DNA of 64,000 nucleotides from Candidatus Altimarinota bacterium (GTDB lineage: Bacteria; Patescibacteriota; Gracilibacteria; BD1-5; UBA6164). The stretch covers positions 1 through 64,000 of the forward strand of contig CALREY010000007.1 of assembly GCA_943356435.1 (NCBI GenBank), written 5' to 3'. Position 1 is the stretch's first letter. Each line of letters starts with the position of its first letter. The notes beneath the pieces are model-generated. The model saw only the letters and a list, made by a program, of their open reading frames with translations, did no database searches and was not told the origin of the DNA. A program made the position numbers and the translations under genes. Positions 10,871 through 42,588 of this stretch are shown one piece after another.

Positions 10871-11764
10871 TTATCAGTAAGTGTACCATGCACCTCTTTG
10901 GTTATAGTATTGTGCATTTGCTTTTATGATTGAAACAGCATCAGATGAAGTATCTCCGCAAATTTGGTTATCAAAAGTACCACATTTGTAAGCAGTCTTA
11001 TCTGAAAATCTATTGTCTTTTTTAGCTTCAGAAAGTCCCAAATTAAATGCAGTCATTATAGTTCCATAATCATACGAAGAAGTACCAGCTTTACCATACC
11101 CACCAGCACCAGTACCAATTAAAATACTAGTAGGATAATGGCTCCAATCGTTGTTGTATATAGCAACCGAAACTCCATGATGCAAGCCAAATGTATGTCC
11201 TACTTCATGAGCTGTTAGGTAAACTCTACTTAAACAAGTATCTCTAGCATTTAAGAACAATATACCATCGTCGCCTTTTTTTAGCAGTGATGCAACAGTT
11301 GGAAAAGTGTTAGTGATTTGAGAAGTATTTGGTATATTTACTGAAGTACCACAAATACTAGTAGTTAACCAATTACTAGGTTTAACAATTCCAATTACTA
11401 CATCAGCTGTATAATTTTTTTGTATTTTATGCAATGTTAATCTAACTGCCTTTATACCACCAGCCAAACTAGGATTTACAGAATATTTGAATTTCAAGTA
11501 ATCCAAAGTGTCGCCAGCTACACTAATACTGTCAGTAGTATTAATTGCTAAAGTGAAATTAATGTATGAACCCAAACCGGAACCATTAAAACTTGCATTT
11601 AAATTATTAATGATATTGTTTGTTATATTTGTTCTTTCAATAGCAGTATAGTTTGTTGAAAATGTATCAAAAACTACAGCTACCCTAAGTGTTTGTACTA
11701 CTGCATTTGCAGTGTTGCAAATAAGGATTAGAAAAAGTAAGAAGCATAATTTAAAAACTTTCAT
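10871..11764 (-). CDS. Secreted metzincin-type zinc metalloprotease (foreign dialect)
   Basis: About 297 aa with an N-terminal signal peptide (hydrophobic core, cleavage near CNTANA-VV). The zinc signature HEVGHTFGLHH fits HExxHxxGxxH, and a Met-turn-like GTIMTAF follows about 45 residues later; both define metzincins. Several Cys could form disulfides. All 24 or so internal glycines are GGN and none is TGA, unlike the neighbours; an SD (GGAG) lies 8 nt before the ATG. The gene ends TGA TAA: with TGA as stop it finishes at 10874, with TGA=Gly it gains one residue and stops at 10871. Second gene of a unit with the membrane protein upstream. Substrate unknown; foreign origin is inferred. Confidence 0.85.
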
Positions 11765-27636: not shown

Positions 27637-28338
27637 TTACTTCAGATTCAAATAATGTTTTCTTTTTTCTTCGTTGAATTTTTCTATTGCATATCTGAGC
27701 ATTGTTCTAGGCATTTTCGTAGTATTTTTATCCAAATAATCTGTTAATACTTTTTCATCTTTTTTTCATACTTCTCTCAAACACCATCCAGTAGCTTTGT
27801 GAATCAAGTCGTGAGTATCATTTATTAGTATATCGCACAATTTCAAAGTATCATCGTATTTATTATATTTGATGAAGTATAGTGTTGCTATTATAGATAT
27901 TCTTTTTTCCCATAGATTCTCAGATTTGGCTAAGCTATACAGTATAGATTTATCAGCATTTAATAAATAATTTCCTACTATATATGGAGCACTAGTATCT
28001 ACCAGATCCCAATTATTTATATTTTTCGTATGAGCCATATAAAAATCATAAATACTCTTTTTTTCTTCATCATTTCCAGACTTGTATTTGGCTACCAATA
28101 CTAATAATCCAGTCAATCTTTGTTCATGGTATTCATTTAGAATCAATTTTTCTACATCATCCAAACTCAGTAATTTATAATATTTTTTTACTACTATTCT
28201 AGTTTCTGGAACAGTGAGACCATAAAACTTATCTCATTCTCAGTATTGTCAGACTCAAGTTTTGAAAAATCTGGCAGAATTGATAGATCTTTGTGCATCT
28301 GAGAATTTTTCTAAGTCTTGAATTAATTGTTTAAGCAT
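27637..28338 (-). CDS. DNA alkylation repair protein (AlkD-like HEAT-repeat glycosylase)
   Basis: 233 aa, all-helical. Family landmarks: [31 protein letters not shown] near the N-terminus, NNWDLVDTSAPYIVGNYL (substrate-groove Trp-Asp), WEKRISIIATLYFI, and ATGWCLREVGKKDEKVLTDYL..MPRTMLRYAIEKF. AlkD excises N3/N7-alkylated bases without base flipping. Native TGA use. Confidence 0.92.
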
Positions 28339-28404
28339 ATTAAAAAGTTAAAAAATATTTATAAATAATATACTAATGAATAATAAATAAAATCAATACA
28401 AATT

Positions 28405-28430
28405 AAAAAGCCCTCATAATGAGGGCTTTT
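28405..28430 (-). terminator. Terminator of the secreted-protein cassette
   Basis: AAAAAGCCCTCATAATGAGGGCTTTT palindrome just after the stop codon of the minus-strand gene. Confidence 0.85.
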
Positions 28431-28450
28431 GTTTTCGCTAAATCTTATCG

Positions 28451-28927
28451 CTACATTTTCAGAAATGTTTTGATATTATTCAGATGTTGCTGGACTACTT
28501 GTTCAGCCTTTTGTGTAGCCATTGGAGTCTCAGTGTAATTTGCATAGATTGTTTTTCCACCGTCTCTGGCTTCCATGATATCAATAATCTCGCCAGTCTT
28601 TTCATCTACACTAAATACCGAAGAATACTTTGGATTCACTACACTTACTGGCATATAGGATACCAAAAACTCGTCGTTTTCCACATAACTGTCATAGTCC
28701 CAAATGGTATAAAATGTACCATTAACTATGAAAGTGACCTGCACTCGATACTTTCCAGAAACTGGAGCATCTTTATCGGCTTCTGGATCATTGAAATCAA
28801 CTTGCTTCGAGATGAAACTTGTATCTGGTGTCTGGTTCAACTTATCAACGATAGATTTTACTTCTACCGCTGAAGCAGTTTGGCTAACAAAAAACAATAC
28901 TACTGCAATAAATTTGATGACATTCAT
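28451..28927 (-). CDS. Secreted protein of unknown function (foreign dialect)
   Basis: 158 aa. Signal peptide MNVIKFIAVVLFFVSQTASA with an AxA site, mature part mixed alpha/beta (SGKYRVQVTFIVNGTFYTIWDYD..). Not assigned to a family. No TGA codon, SD AAAGGAA 6 nt before the ATG, stop TAG. TTGACT promoter at 28994 and a strong terminator make it a self-contained cassette. Composition is visibly more balanced than that of the native neighbours. Confidence 0.75.
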   Translation of the reverse strand: MNVIKFIAVVLFFVSQTASAVEVKSIVDKLNQTPDTSFISKQVDFNDPEADKDAPVSGKYRVQVTFIVNGTFYTIWDYDSYVENDEFLVSYMPVSVVNPKYSSVFSVDEKTGEIIDIMEARDGGKTIYANYTETPMATQKAEQVVQQHLNNIKTFLKM

Positions 28928-29555: not shown

Positions 29556-29600
29556 CATAATTATATGATTATATTTGCTCAGATTTAAATGTTTACCATG

Positions 29601-29629
29601 AAAAAACGCATACAAAGTATGCGTTTTCT
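29601..29629 (-). terminator. Terminator after the UGA-stop gene
   Basis: AAAAAACGCATAC / GTATGCGTTTT stem, 28 nt downstream of the TGA at 29657. Under the native code the upstream gene would be translated through it. Confidence 0.85.
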
Positions 29630-29656
29630 TGTCTTAGAAATGCTGCATTGATTAAA

Positions 29657-29878
29657 TCAAGCAACGGATTTCAAATGTCTTCTTTGTTTTACCAGTTCAC
29701 GCCGATCCATTTCAGCAATGACGGCTTTGCCACCAGCTTTTCCAGCTTCAAAAGCCAGATTTTTCATATAAGCATCAGGTCCACCTGCATCGCTCATATT
29801 TTGGAGCATTGCAGCGATACCATGGATTGGCTTATTGGTACGATGAGAAATTGCAGTCTGACTACATGTTTTTGGCAT
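29657..29878 (-). CDS. Small basic protein ending in TGA (foreign dialect, standard-code stop)
   Basis: 73 aa, MPKTCSQTAISHRTNKPIHG.., with Gly/Ala-rich FEAGKAGGKAVIAEMDRRELVKQRRHLKSVA at the end. SD GAGGTG 5 nt before the ATG. The only in-frame TGA is at 29657-29659; read as Gly it would add 24 residues across the terminator hairpin to TAA at 29585. As a stop it gives normal gene-terminator spacing. Higher GC than the surroundings. No family recognised; the basic, Gly-rich end suggests nucleic-acid binding (weak inference). Confidence 0.7.
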   Translation of the reverse strand: MPKTCSQTAISHRTNKPIHGIAAMLQNMSDAGGPDAYMKNLAFEAGKAGGKAVIAEMDRRELVKQRRHLKSVA

Positions 29879-29935
29879 ATTTCACCTCAAATAGGTTGTA
29901 AAAAAAAGAACTAACTTTTGCAAGCTAGTTTAGTA

Positions 29936-29962
29936 ATTATAATTAAAAATACAGATAGTCAA
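29936..29962 (-). promoter_or_regulatory. Promoter and leader attenuator-like hairpin of the UGA-stop gene
   Basis: Minus strand TTGACT (29957-29962), 15-bp spacer, TATAAT (29936-29941). Just downstream, at about 29901-29932, AACTA..TAGTT followed by eight T resembles a terminator inside the leader. Confidence 0.5.
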
Positions 29963-30127
29963 ATTGGAAAAATTAAATTTCTAATAACATAGGAAGTTCT
30001 TTTTTCCAATTTTTCCTAGTTTTTTCACAAAAGTGTCATCATCATCTTTTATTGTAAATAAAGAAATTTATTATCTTCATTATAAAATAGCTCTGAATAT
30101 GGAGTACTAATGTGGAAAGGGGGGATA

Positions 30128-30784
30128 TTAATTTCTTTCCTCTTTTAAAATTTTTTCAACAAGCAAGTAAACAGTTGTAGATGATTCTTCACTTCATGGA
30201 TTAGTACATTTTCAATTTGTTTTCCTAAATAATTCATATATTTTTTTTGCTCTTTTAATTGCTATTTCTGATGAACCATACAATACATCAAAAAAATTTT
30301 GATTTATTATTTTATTTGTTTTTCAATCATATTTTATATTTAATGGTTTTAAATAAGAATTTAGTTTTTTGTTATAATCTTTTCTATTCATTCATCATCA
30401 TTGGTGGTCTTCAAAATGTAGCAATAGCCAGTATTCAAATGCTTGATTTGAATACGCTATTCAAAATCATAATTTATTTCATTTAAAAATAGCATTATTA
30501 AAATTAGATATTTGAGTAGGATTACTAGGTTTAGGATCAGCATCAAATACACACCATATTTCATCATACTCATATTTTTTTGATTTTTCTAATGCTTCGT
30601 CTATTATTTTAATAGTGTTATATCAAGTTCATACTATTTCAATATCAATTGTTGAAATATTAAATTTATCAAAATATGAAGGTTCTGTGTTTTTTCATTC
30701 GCAGACTATTAAAAAGGTTTTCTTTTTATTTCTTAGTCATTTTTTTCTTTCTTTTAGTCATGTTCATTTTTTAAATCATCCCAT
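30128..30784 (-). CDS. rloB: RloB-like TOPRIM-type defence nuclease partner
   Basis: 218 aa. Starts with a basic head (KKGTGLKERKKGLRNKKK), then FLIVCEGKNTEPSYFDKF (conserved Glu), IWCVFDADPKPS (DxD) and YSNQAFEYWLLLHFEDH, the RloB pattern (CEGxxTE, DxD, NxAFExWLLLH). Full of TGA (about 15). Starts 3 nt after RloA ends, so the two are translationally linked. RloA/RloB pairs were first seen linked to restriction loci and are predicted to block phage; effector chemistry is inferred. Confidence 0.85.
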
Positions 30785-30786
30785 AT

Positions 30787-32097
30787 TTATTTATTTAATA
30801 TGTATTCTAAATTTTTGATTTTTGGAGTTGCTCAATATTTTCATCTTATATAATTTTTTTCAAAATTTTCTTCACTTTTAATAGAAAAGTCTGATAATGA
30901 ATACAAAGAAGACTCTCAATATATATTTTTTTCTATGAACCAAATTTGATCTCTTCTAAACAAAATATTAGAAAGAATATTTGTATTATGAGTAGTTGCA
31001 ATTAACTGGGCATTATTTTTATTAAGTGTATTAGAATTAAAAATAGATATTATTTTTTCGACTAAATTCGTATGTAATTTAGCTTCTAATTCATCAACAA
31101 TTAAAGTATATCAATTTTCAATTGTGTCTATTATTGGTCAAGTTAGAGCAAAAAATTTTCTTGTTCAAGATGATTCATCTTTTTCCATTGAAAATGATTC
31201 TTCTCATATAATATTATATTCTTTATTAAATTTTTTATAATAAAGTAAAGTATCTCATAGTATAGTTCATTGAGATTCAGTAATTTTTTGTCTTATTTCA
31301 TCTTTGTCTTCATCAGATAATAATTTCATTTTTTTTAATATTTTTTCTACGTCTGTTTCTATTTCTATATTTGAAACATTAATATTTACTCAATTAAGTA
31401 AATTTAAAATTTCATTTTTTTTATCAGTTAATTCACATATTTGAGATTGAGTGTATTTTTCAATTTTATTAGATAGTCAATTTGATATTCTTAAATTATT
31501 ATTAATCCGATTATATACATCACTTACTATTCATTTTTCATTTAATTGTCATGCTGCTAGAGAAAGTAATAATATATTTTCTCTTAACAAATTTTCATTT
31601 TTGATAACTAATCATTTTTTAAAATATTTTTCATTGATTTTTTCTATTCTATTATTTTCTCTATAAAATATAAGAATTTCTTTTCTATTTTCTTTATAGA
31701 ATAACCATTCAGAAATAATATTATTTTTTGTAGTTTCAAATCAATATCTATATAAATTGTTATTATTCAAAAAAATTATTTCAAATTCTGTTGGAATTTT
31801 ATCTGAATAATCATTTAATTTAAAATAATCAATATTTATAATATCTCATTTAGAACTTTTAAATCATATTTTTACAGTAAAAGATTTGAAAAAATTTATT
31901 GCATCAATAAATTTACTTTTTCAACTTGCATTAGCTCAATAAATAATTCAACTTTTTAGTAGTCTTAGTCAAAATTTTTCAACATTTATAATATTGCTTT
32001 TTTCTAGCTCTTTTTTATCGTATTTTGATGCAAGTAAACTGAAGATAGCTTTTTCTTTAAATGATTTATAATTTTTAACAGTAAATTGTATTAACAT
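30787..32097 (-). CDS. rloA: RloA-like AAA15/OLD-type ATPase
   Basis: 436 aa. N-terminal ABC-type ATPase start MLIQFTVKNYKSFKEK, Walker A YGANASGKS, a long helical insertion (about 150-290), then signature-like DESSGTRKFFAL, Walker B LIVDELEAKLH, and the D/H loop LIATTHNTNIL. C-terminal YIRGKYGATP matches the Y-x-R/K-G-x-Y-G-A-x-P end typical of RloA/Abi ATPases. Encoded entirely in the UGA=Gly code, so it is long resident or well adapted. Forms an operon with RloB. Confidence 0.88.
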
Positions 32098-32296: not shown

Positions 32297-32372
32297 TGGT
32301 ACTCCCAAGGGGATTTGAACCCCTGTATCCACCGTGAGAGGGTGGTGTCCTAGGCCACTAGACGATGGGAGC
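32297..32372 (-). tRNA. tRNA-Glu (anticodon CUC), CCA encoded
   Basis: 76 nt. Acceptor arms GCTCCCA/TGGGAGT, D arm with CTAGTGGCCTAGGAC, anticodon stem CCACC/GGTGG around loop CTCTCAC (anticodon CUC), T arm AGGGG-TTCAAAT-CCCCT, discriminator A then CCA. The G1-U72 wobble is unusual. It lies immediately upstream of the RloAB region. Confidence 0.95.
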
Positions 32373-39446: not shown

Positions 39447-40055
39447 ATGGAATTCTTACAAAAAATAAAATGATGAATTTATAATGGTATATGATTTGTA
39501 CTCGTATTATGAATTACAGGAATTGCATATTGAGCATATACTTCAATGACAGATGTAACTACATGACAAGCATTAACTGCATCTTTATTTAATCAAATAC
39601 AGGAAAATATAAGAGTACTTAGAACAGATGTAGATAAATCAAGTCCAGCTTGAGCTGTAATGGCATTCAATTTATCATCTTGTCCAACATGATGGATAGT
39701 AGCAAATTGAGCAAATGGAACTCCTGATTTGAGAGGGGAGTTTATTAGATGATTGGATGGAGGAAAGTGAGTAGATAGTGGGAGAACATTAGCTAGTTGG
39801 CAAAAAGCATCATATATAGTATATGATCAACAAAATTTATGAAGACTTACTTCTCTATATTCAAATCTTTCTGAAAATTCACAAGCTTGGGCAGATCAAT
39901 TATGAGTAGATTTATTAGTATGACATACAGAATCTATAAACACAAATGTTTCTCGTGTATTAGGAGCATGAACTAATGCATTTTCAGATAATCCAAATGC
40001 GGTTTGATGATCTCGTCCTAGAAATATAGCTTTATTATATTGTGTAAAACAATAA
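39447..40055 (+). CDS. Membrane-anchored tail-collar-like protein 1
   Basis: 202 aa. Basic start then one uncleaved-looking membrane helix (about 14-32), a helical stalk (TASLFNQIQENIRVLRTDVDKS), then a phage tail-collar-like domain: VMAFNLSSCPTGWIVANGANGTPDLRGEFIRGLDGGKGVDSGRTLASWQ and the ending RPRNIALLYCVKQ. The domain is known from tail-fibre tips and other adhesins. Most divergent member of the array in its centre. About 17 TGA codons. Exposed receptor binding is inferred. Confidence 0.85.
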
Positions 40056-40114
40056 TTTACTTGTCAACATATGGCTTTAGCCATTTGAATTATAAATCAA
40101 TAAAAAATGAACCT

Positions 40115-40678
40115 ATGAAAAAATATTTAGAATCTTATTATAGATGAATAATTAATTGATTGTGGTTGTTAGTAATAATTTGAATTACTTGAATAGCTTA
40201 TTGATCATTGAGTTCATTGACTGCTGTTAATTCTGAAACATTAACTGCATCTAAATGGAATGCATTGGTTGAACATGCTGTTCCGTCTTGAGCAGTATTT
40301 TCATTCAATTTATCTAGTTGTCCTAGTTGATGGATAGCTGCTGATTGAACTAATGGTACACCAGATTTAAGGGGAGAATTTATTAGATGATTGGATGGAG
40401 GTAGATGAGTGGATAGTGCTAGAAGTTTGGCTACTTCACAAACAGATACTTTACAAGGACACAATCATGATATTACTTTGAATTGAGTAAATGGAGTTGG
40501 TCCTTCAACTGGATGAGGTGTAGATGATAATAGATTTTCTTTTACGGATGATTTTTATGCTAGTCAATGATGATTTTACGCATGAAGTATATCTACAAAT
40601 TGAGTGAATTGAACTCCTAGAGTTAGTTCAGAAACGCGTCCTCGTAATGTAGCACTATTGTATTGTGTAAAACAATAA
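40115..40678 (+). CDS. Membrane-anchored tail-collar-like protein 2
   Basis: 187 aa. Anchor helix (about 12-32), short stalk (LTASKWNALVEH), then SFNLSSCPSGWIAADGTNGTPDLRGEFIRGLDGGRGVDSARSLATSQ, a His-rich GHNHDIT segment and SSETRPRNVALLYCVKQ. Closest to protein 3 (few differences outside two short loops). The HNHxI segment resembles metal-binding His of T4 short tail fibres, so ion binding is possible. In-frame TGA throughout. Confidence 0.88.
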
Positions 40679-40733
40679 AAAACTATTCAAAAGATGGCTT
40701 CAGCCATTTGCATATTTTAATATAAAAAAGCAT

Positions 40734-41297
40734 ATGAAAAAATATTTAGTAACATATTATAAATGATTGATTAATTGATTGTGATTTTTAACAATTATTT
40801 TAATTACTTGAATAGCATATTGATCATTGAGTTCATTAACTGCTGTTACATCTGAAACATTAACTGCATCTAAATGGAATGCATTGGTTGAACATGCTGT
40901 TCCATCATGATCTGTAATTGCATTCAATCTCTCATCTTGTCCAACATGATGGATAGCAGCAGATTGAGCTAATAGTACACCAGATTTGAGATGAGAATTC
41001 ATTAGATGATTGGACGGAGGTAGATGAGTAGATAGTGGTAGAAGTTTAGCTACTTCACAAACAGATACTTTCCAAGGTCATAATCATGATATCACTATGA
41101 ATTGAGTAAATGGAGTTGGTCCTTCAACTGGATGAGGTGCAGATGATAGTAGATTTACATTTTCTGATATATCTTATTCTAGCCAATGATGATTTTATGC
41201 ATGAAGTATATCTACGAATTGAGTAAATTGAACTCCTAGAGTTAGTTCAGAAACTCGTCCTCGTAATGTAGCTTTATTATATTGTGTAAAACAATAA
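40734..41297 (+). CDS. Membrane-anchored tail-collar-like protein 3
   Basis: 187 aa, near-duplicate of protein 2: same length, same anchor and ends. Differences cluster around residues 120-150 (HNHDITMNGVNGVGPSTGGGADDSRFTFSDISYSS), the part predicted to face outwards. Short intergenic distance (55 nt) with the shared hairpin. Confidence 0.88.
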
Positions 41298-41352
41298 AAA
41301 CTATTTAACAGATGGTTTTTCCATTTGAATATTTTATTATAAAAATAAGCCT

Positions 41353-41958
41353 ATGAAAAAATATTTAGAATGATATATGAAATGACTAAGTATTTGAATG
41401 TGAATACTTACTATACTTTGAATTACTTGAGTAGCTTACTGAGCATATGTAGCTATGACTGATGTAAATAATGGAGAAACATTAACTGCATCTACATTTA
41501 ATATAGTACAAGAAAATATAAGAACACTTAAAACTACTGTAGATTGACATACTTCTACTCTATCATGATTATCAAACATTCCTGCATGAGCAGTAATGGC
41601 ATTCAATTTATCATCATGTCCAAGTGGTTGGATAGCAGCAAATGGATCTAGTGGTACACCAGATTTGAGAGGTGAATTTATTAGATGATTGGATGGAGGT
41701 AGATGAGTAGATGCAGCTAGAACATTAGCAAGTGCACAAGCACAAGATTGGAAATGATTTTATCAAACAAATACATGAATGAATTGGTCTGCATGATATG
41801 CACATAATGATGTTTATATGTGAAAATCTACTTCAGCATACAACTGAGCATTATTTACTTGATATTGGTCAAATCCTTCAGCAGCAATTTGAACTAAATG
41901 GGATACTTCAGAAGTAAGACCTCGTAACGTAGCACTACTATATTGTGTAAAACAATAA
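41353..41958 (+). CDS. Membrane-anchored tail-collar-like protein 4
   Basis: 201 aa. Anchor region GLSIGMGILTILGITGVAYGAY, stalk STFNIVQENIRTLKTTVDGHTSTLSGL, then AFNLSSCPSGWIAANGSSGTPDLRGEFIRGLDGGRGVDAARTLASAQ, a unique Tyr/Asn-rich middle (FYQTNTGMNGSAGYAHNDVYM) and EVRPRNVALLYCVKQ. First 30 codons almost identical in DNA to protein 5. Confidence 0.88.
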
Positions 41959-42012
41959 TTTACTTGTAAATAGATGACTTTAGCCATTTGCTTATTTTAT
42001 TATAACAAGCCT

Positions 42013-42588
42013 ATGAAAAAATATTTAGAAAGATATATGAAATGACTAAGTATTTGATTATGAATACTTACTATACTTTGAATTACATGAGTAGCATATT
42101 GAGCATATGTTACATTATCAAGTGTATCTACATGAGATCCTCTTACTGCAAGTAATTATAATCAATTAATAGAAAATGTATCAGTTTTGAAGTCAACAGT
42201 TGATTGAATATGAAGTTGAGTAATACCAGTTTGAGCAGTAATGGCCTTTAATGGTTCTAGTTGTCCAACTTGATGGACAGCCGCTGATTGAAGCGGAGAT
42301 GAAAAAAATACAAGCTGAACTAATACAACTCTTGATTTAAGAGGTACATTTATAAGATGATTGAATTGAAGTGTAAATGGTAGAGATGTAAGTAGAACAT
42401 TATGAGATTACCAAGCAGATGAATTAAAAAGTCATAGTCATCAAGTTACTTGATGAGGAGGAGCAGGATGATGAGGTACTTATTTATGATATTTTCAATC
42501 TTTTACTGCTAACAGAGATACTACATCAGTATGATGAACAGAAACTCGTCCTCGTAACGTAGCACTACTATATTGTGTAAAACAATAA
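42013..42588 (+). CDS. Membrane-anchored tail-collar-like protein 5
   Basis: 191 aa. Same anchor as protein 4, stalk NQLIENVSVLKSTVDG, domain AFNGSSCPTGWTAADGSGDEKNTSGTNTTLDLRGTFIRGLNG with an 11-residue insertion relative to the others, then SHSHQVTGGGGAGGG and GTETRPRNVALLYCVKQ. The DLRG..F(I)RG core and the last 12 residues are invariant in all five proteins. Confidence 0.87.

Follow-up and report, generated by a model that had tools for sequence, protein, structure and literature searches.

A 73-codon gene in the window (the whole stretch of 64,000 nucleotides that was analysed) ends in a TGA which is a stop in the standard code and a glycine codon in code 25, and an intrinsic terminator follows ahead of the next stop. 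The gene is probably cargo that immigrated from a standard-code background with its UGA left unrepaired; in its present host this UGA would be read as glycine, and the resulting non-stop mRNA would be rescued by tmRNA and SmpB. Composition and location lend good support to its foreign, standard-coded origin, although the searches found no donor, while glycine insertion at this TGA, the 3' end of the transcript, tagging of the product and its low dose are what we infer from the sequence features described below. Re-reading the sequence confirmed the initial annotation in placing an ORF of 73 codons, closed by TGA, ahead of a terminator, and translation bore out its code-25 frame of 97 residues, which extends 24 residues beyond the position of the TGA, through the terminator stem, to TAA at 29587-29585. 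The gene and its end consist of the following features:

29660..29878, minus strand: 73-codon gene for a small protein, with ATG at 29878, no in-frame TGA and all glycine codons GGN
29657..29659, minus strand: TGA, a stop in the standard code and glycine in code 25
29588..29656, minus strand: 23 codons 3' of the TGA, overlapping the terminator; the tail is glycine plus 23 residues
29603..29627, minus strand: intrinsic terminator hairpin with an 11-bp stem, a 3-nt loop and a U-tract to 29601
29585..29587, minus strand: TAA, the first in-frame code-25 stop, 13 nt past the U-tract

The terminator stem (arms 29627-29617 and 29613-29603; -14.8 kcal/mol; z = -3.0) lies about 29 nt from the TGA. Since the U-tract ends 13 nt ahead of the TAA, a transcript terminated here would carry no in-frame code-25 stop. 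In a survey of 856 kb of the genome (about 55%, window included), not one of 589 native-like ORFs has a terminator-like site within the 90 nt that precede its stop, and 40 have one at most 90 nt downstream of it. The succession of TGA and terminator in the 73-codon gene is more than chance.

Expected reading of UGA in the host genome

The window is contig C7 of an assembly (G000) of 1.55 Mb in 30 contigs, which is 90% complete. TGA accounts for 744 of the 1203 glycine codons in window ORFs and for 74% of glycine in native ORFs, and most window genes carry in-frame TGA, which identifies code 25 (UGA = Gly). A single class-I release factor, RF1-like, is found in G000 and in each of three further genomes, namely G002 of the same genus, G125 of another genus of the family, and G037, from a different family in the same order (G+C 56%; TGA for about 7% of glycine). 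The RF-1 Pfam model detected no second class-I release factor in these four genomes, G000 being represented by its 90% complete assembly, and the RF2 model gave one match per genome, below the prfB cut-off and to an RF1-like sequence. This RF1-only result agrees with the literature, in which BD1-5 genomes are described as lacking prfB (PMC6851277). Furthermore, a tRNA with anticodon UCA (TCA) is located at 66.4 kb of contig C1 in G000, where the ARAGORN label SeC is taken from the anticodon. As RF1 is the only class-I release factor and a tRNA(UCA) is present, UGA is expected to be a sense codon in G000, and it is most likely read as glycine. The initial annotation had held that UGA must be a stop for this gene and had proposed the presence of release factor 2 as one of its checks; with RF1 alone detected, the claim is not supported and the gene would most likely become a non-stop gene instead. 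A tmRNA scores above the cut-off in G000, G002 and G037 and SmpB is encoded in all four genomes, by which non-stop ribosomes would presumably be rescued through trans-translation.

Probable foreign origin, relatives and location

All glycine codons are GGN in the window gene and its three relatives, with TGA at 0/6, 0/8, 0/8 and 0/5 of them (0/27 in total), and the 0/6 of the window gene compares with 74% in native genes at p of about 3e-4. GGN-only glycine alone is no proof of import, since the native genes for L7/L12 and bL35 also lack TGA. Indeed, TGA looks like an avoided glycine codon in highly expressed native genes: it is rare or never used for glycine in those for L7/L12, bL35 and EF-Tu (L047:399-773; L060:3726-3971; L075, start 2608, minus strand), against a genome average of 74%. 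With glycine left out, the codon usage of the window gene has a log-likelihood of -60 under an immigrant-like set, which was picked by TGA absence and is a working class rather than a proven donor set, as compared with -75 under the native and -79 under the highly expressed native set. Native high expression as the cause of GGN-only glycine was rejected on this codon usage (-79 versus -60).

Three relatives were identified, all in other code-25 genomes: L002:5001-5219 (G002), L004:1462-1716 on the minus strand (G037) and L009:1456-1677 (G125). A strict scan of genome_contigs yielded one of them, L002 in Candidatus Gracilibacteria STC_129 (the same contig as G002:C16; same genus, 81% identity), and the copies in G037 and G125 were added by searching relatives as well as 353 genomes belonging to the class. 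Five of these 353 genomes matched, G175 among them being judged a chance match; the gene did not turn up in three further genomes of its genus, and its distribution is patchy. The profile matches in G175 and G666 are located inside long unrelated frames, a weak tblastn match in Variovorax overlaps no query-like frame and another in Polaromonas lies inside an annotated VWA protein; all four were taken as chance. No standard-code relative was found in searches which, beyond Patescibacteria, covered one strict genome_contigs scan as well as phage, plasmid and viral records. Likewise, the protein has no family match in Pfam, NCBIfam or PHROG and nothing significant among PDB sequences. An AlphaFold model from two sequences is helical but, at pLDDT 71 and pTM 0.37, not strong enough to search for related folds; it predicts at low confidence a long C-terminal helix rich in basic residues.

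The TGA of L002 is the same codon as in the window gene, and in both L002 and L004 a TGA stands at the matching place (LK-x-V-x-TGA) and is followed by a hairpin, which in L004 failed the strict terminator test. L009 closes in TAA, followed by a strong terminator. In L002, a gap of only about 4 to 6 nt separates the U-tract from the stop downstream of it. Judged from these arrangements, a transcript without an in-frame stop is predicted for the window gene and L002 and is likely for L004, but not for L009. The initial annotation had named homologues in code-25 genomes which conserve the extended C-terminus as evidence that would speak against it. The tail proved to be unconserved: the code-25 tails are unlike (GFNQCSISK... 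versus GFVNAIFLK...) and an indel shortly past the TGA breaks the frame, so that a conserved C-terminal extension was rejected.

Upstream, the similarity to G002 extends into the leader and a promoter-like region:

29636..29966, minus strand: block of 331 nt homologous to same-genus G002, with 83% nucleotide identity and unrelated sequence on both sides
29936..29962, minus strand: promoter-like TTGACT - 15 nt - TATAAT, kept in L002 and read by eye in the alignment
29909..29930, minus strand: leader hairpin of 9 bp followed by a T-run

The promoter-like element was called by eye, its 15-nt spacing being outside the range of the promoter scan. At the same leader position, L002 has a 7-bp hairpin, changed in sequence but retained as a hairpin. 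Between the window gene and L002, dS is 0.27 and dN 0.11 (ratio 0.42, Fisher p = 0.05), and the gene is probably, though not certainly, under selection; the TGA shared by the two species is weak evidence of selection, as at the synonymous rate the codon would stay unchanged with a probability of about 0.44. The neighbouring 233-aa gene has a dS of 0.59, versus 0.27 for the 73-codon gene, which has either been resident since before the two species split or been exchanged between them since. With leader and protein both conserved across two species, the import was probably not very recent. The recent import, not yet repaired, that the initial annotation offered as one option is supported in part: a gene written for UGA as a stop, with GGN-only glycine and foreign-like codon usage, has the look of an import left unrepaired, while its recency is doubtful given a second species that shares the gene, the TGA, the promoter-like region and the 5' hairpin near the same anchor genes.

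The surrounding region is a variable spot with these landmarks:

32297..32372, minus strand: intact tRNA-Glu(CTC), with an RloB/AAA pair between it and the 73-codon gene
27637..28927, minus strand: anchor genes at the opposite edge of the variable spot, a 158-aa gene (signal-peptide-like start) and a 233-aa DNA-alkylation-repair-like gene, named by resemblance only

The anchor pair is common to G000, G002 and G003, and in G003 the 73-codon gene is absent (empty site). Fragments of the tRNA-Glu 3' end occur in G002 at L092 11754, 13228 and 16646, the first of them 58 nt from the homologous block (11370-11696), and in G003 at L091 443, near the same anchor and the empty site. Furthermore, the G037 copy lies 64 nt from a second (duplicated) tmRNA 3' end. 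Such tRNA and tmRNA end fragments are the usual marks of integration, and the tRNA-Glu spot would thus be an integration hotspot. Within this spot, the RloB-like gene adjoins an AAA_21 ATPase gene (window 30128-32097), likely as an anti-phage pair. The 158-aa anchor gene (window 28451-28927) is without TGA in three species of the genus, with a dS of about 1.6 between two of them, and is read as an old TGA-free gene.

Proposed fate of the transcript and alternative explanations

In the explanation we favour, small cargo would be carried in by elements integrating at tRNA and tmRNA genes, would spread among code-25 Gracilibacteria and would be kept in at least two species of the genus with its UGA stop unrepaired. 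As there is no RF2, UGA would be read as glycine in this cell, inserted by the tRNA with anticodon UCA, and ribosomes would continue into the 3' UTR of the gene. With transcription halted at the intrinsic terminator, short of the next in-frame stop, the mRNA would be non-stop; tmRNA-SmpB would free the stalled ribosome and most product would be tagged and degraded, the surviving product being a tailed protein that arises through terminator read-through or from untagged chains. A wider proposal, which we consider improbable, is that UGA-ended immigrants in code-25 bacteria become non-stop genes throttled by trans-translation, at least one of them long kept since a low or stress-dependent output is useful, with the code change acting as a regulator of foreign genes.

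Alternatively, in line with the option of the initial annotation that the gene is read in another cell, it could be cargo that works mainly in standard-code hosts of a mobile element and is a silent or low-dose rider in Gracilibacteria, where its TGA persists since selection acts in the other hosts. We hold this to be unlikely. In its favour, all four relatives are readable to their end in the standard code, their distribution is patchy and they have integration-site neighbours; in addition, Gracilibacteria are among the predicted hosts of phages whose genes suit both codes (PMC10746230). Against it, the phage, plasmid and viral contigs searched yielded no relative, and the near-anchor position common to two species speaks for residence. 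Somewhat less likely still is an imported gene decaying in place, the non-functional passenger of the initial annotation. That reading is weakened by a dN/dS of 0.42 (p = 0.05) and by the retention of open frame, promoter-like region, leader hairpin and start region in two species, even if a non-stop configuration whose TGA was never repaired, and the absence from three other genomes of the genus, would suit it. The least credible account is a native, highly expressed code-25 gene with a freely varying glycine tail: the avoidance of TGA in highly expressed native genes could explain the glycine codons, yet the highly expressed codon set fits 19 log units worse than the immigrant set, and none of the 589 native ORFs has a terminator ahead of its stop.

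The small size of the gene, its predicted stop-less transcript and a product presumably limited by trans-translation recall two alternative rescue factors, Bacillus subtilis BrfA and Escherichia coli ArfA (PMC6881298; PMC10107115), and BrfA, with 71 codons, has a terminator inside its frame (PMC6881298). A rescue or stress factor regulated in this manner, non-stop by design, would have its terminator inside the code-25 frame so that protein accumulates only if tmRNA fails. Three observations would be in keeping with such a design: this small protein has a predicted basic C-terminal helix (low confidence), a terminator-like hairpin precedes the code-25 stop in three members of the set of four relatives, and the G037 copy lies next to ssrA. 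It is nevertheless highly improbable, as no Pfam, NCBIfam or PHROG family matches, L009 has TAA ahead of its terminator, the distribution is patchy and ssrA is a common integration site. Moreover, the RF2 that ArfA and BrfA recruit is absent here, and no sequence relation to these two factors was found; in contrast to theirs, the origin of the non-stop state would be a code mismatch, and one relative has a normal stop.

Foreign genes in a code-25 host have a precedent in Vampirococcus lugosii, a code-25 CPR bacterium with 126 horizontally acquired genes (PMC8080830). As in that report, foreign genes lie within a UGA = Gly genome; unlike it, resident genes here still end in TGA, one of them is common to two species, and a terminator makes its message a predicted non-stop one. 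The 73-codon gene resembles the code-11-compatible Gracilibacteria phages (PMC10746230) in having no in-frame TGA and being readable in both codes. It differs from them in that it is chromosomal, has no phage relative found and ends in TGA alone ahead of a terminator, whereas in these phages the gene ends bring together several different stops within a short distance. Reading through UGA could, it has been argued, spoil the expression of foreign DNA, and UGA recoding has been argued both to isolate these bacteria and to protect them from foreign genes (PMC8080830). Resident UGA-ended genes, one of them in two species, make this idea directly testable by asking whether their products are tagged, tailed or normal. 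In addition, TGA followed by a terminator, together with GGN-only glycine, provides a simple marker for unrepaired imports in code-25 genomes.

Further standard-coded genes in the genome

The 73-codon gene belongs to a small class. In the same 856 kb (about 55% of the genome), four further standard-coded genes were found that end in TGA and have a terminator a short way downstream:

Window 10874..11764, minus strand: weakly metzincin-like gene with 24 glycine codons, all GGN, and TGA followed immediately by TAA, like the clustered stops of the code-11-compatible phages
L064 11993-12385: Bax-like glucosaminidase gene, ending in TGA, with an in-frame stop just past the U-tract
L065 9219-10439: gene for a 407-aa protein, ending in TGA
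L079 18046-18429: gene with a weak VPLPA-CTERM match, ending in TGA

The hexamer TGATTT occurs at four TGA ends (window 29657, L064 12386, L079 18430 and L002 5220); a donor background common to them, or UGAU as a strong context for stopping, may account for this. Contig C3 of G000 contains, at about 51.9-70.4 kb (L064 11867 to L065 10448), an 18-kb stretch of about ten GGN-only, TGA-free genes encoding Bax-like, radical SAM, ABC ATP-binding and secreted-type proteins, which we read as a genomic island written in the standard code within a code-25 genome. PEP-CTERM/VPLPA-CTERM proteins are typical of Gram-negative bacteria with exosortase. In this CPR genome, PEP-CTERM- and VPLPA-CTERM-like proteins (L047:880-1488 and L079:18046-18465) are encoded by TGA-free genes, pointing to proteobacteria-like donors. 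Elsewhere in the window, at 39447-42588, five adjacent glycine-rich genes for proteins of about 200 aa each, all ending AAACAATAA, look like tandem paralogues.
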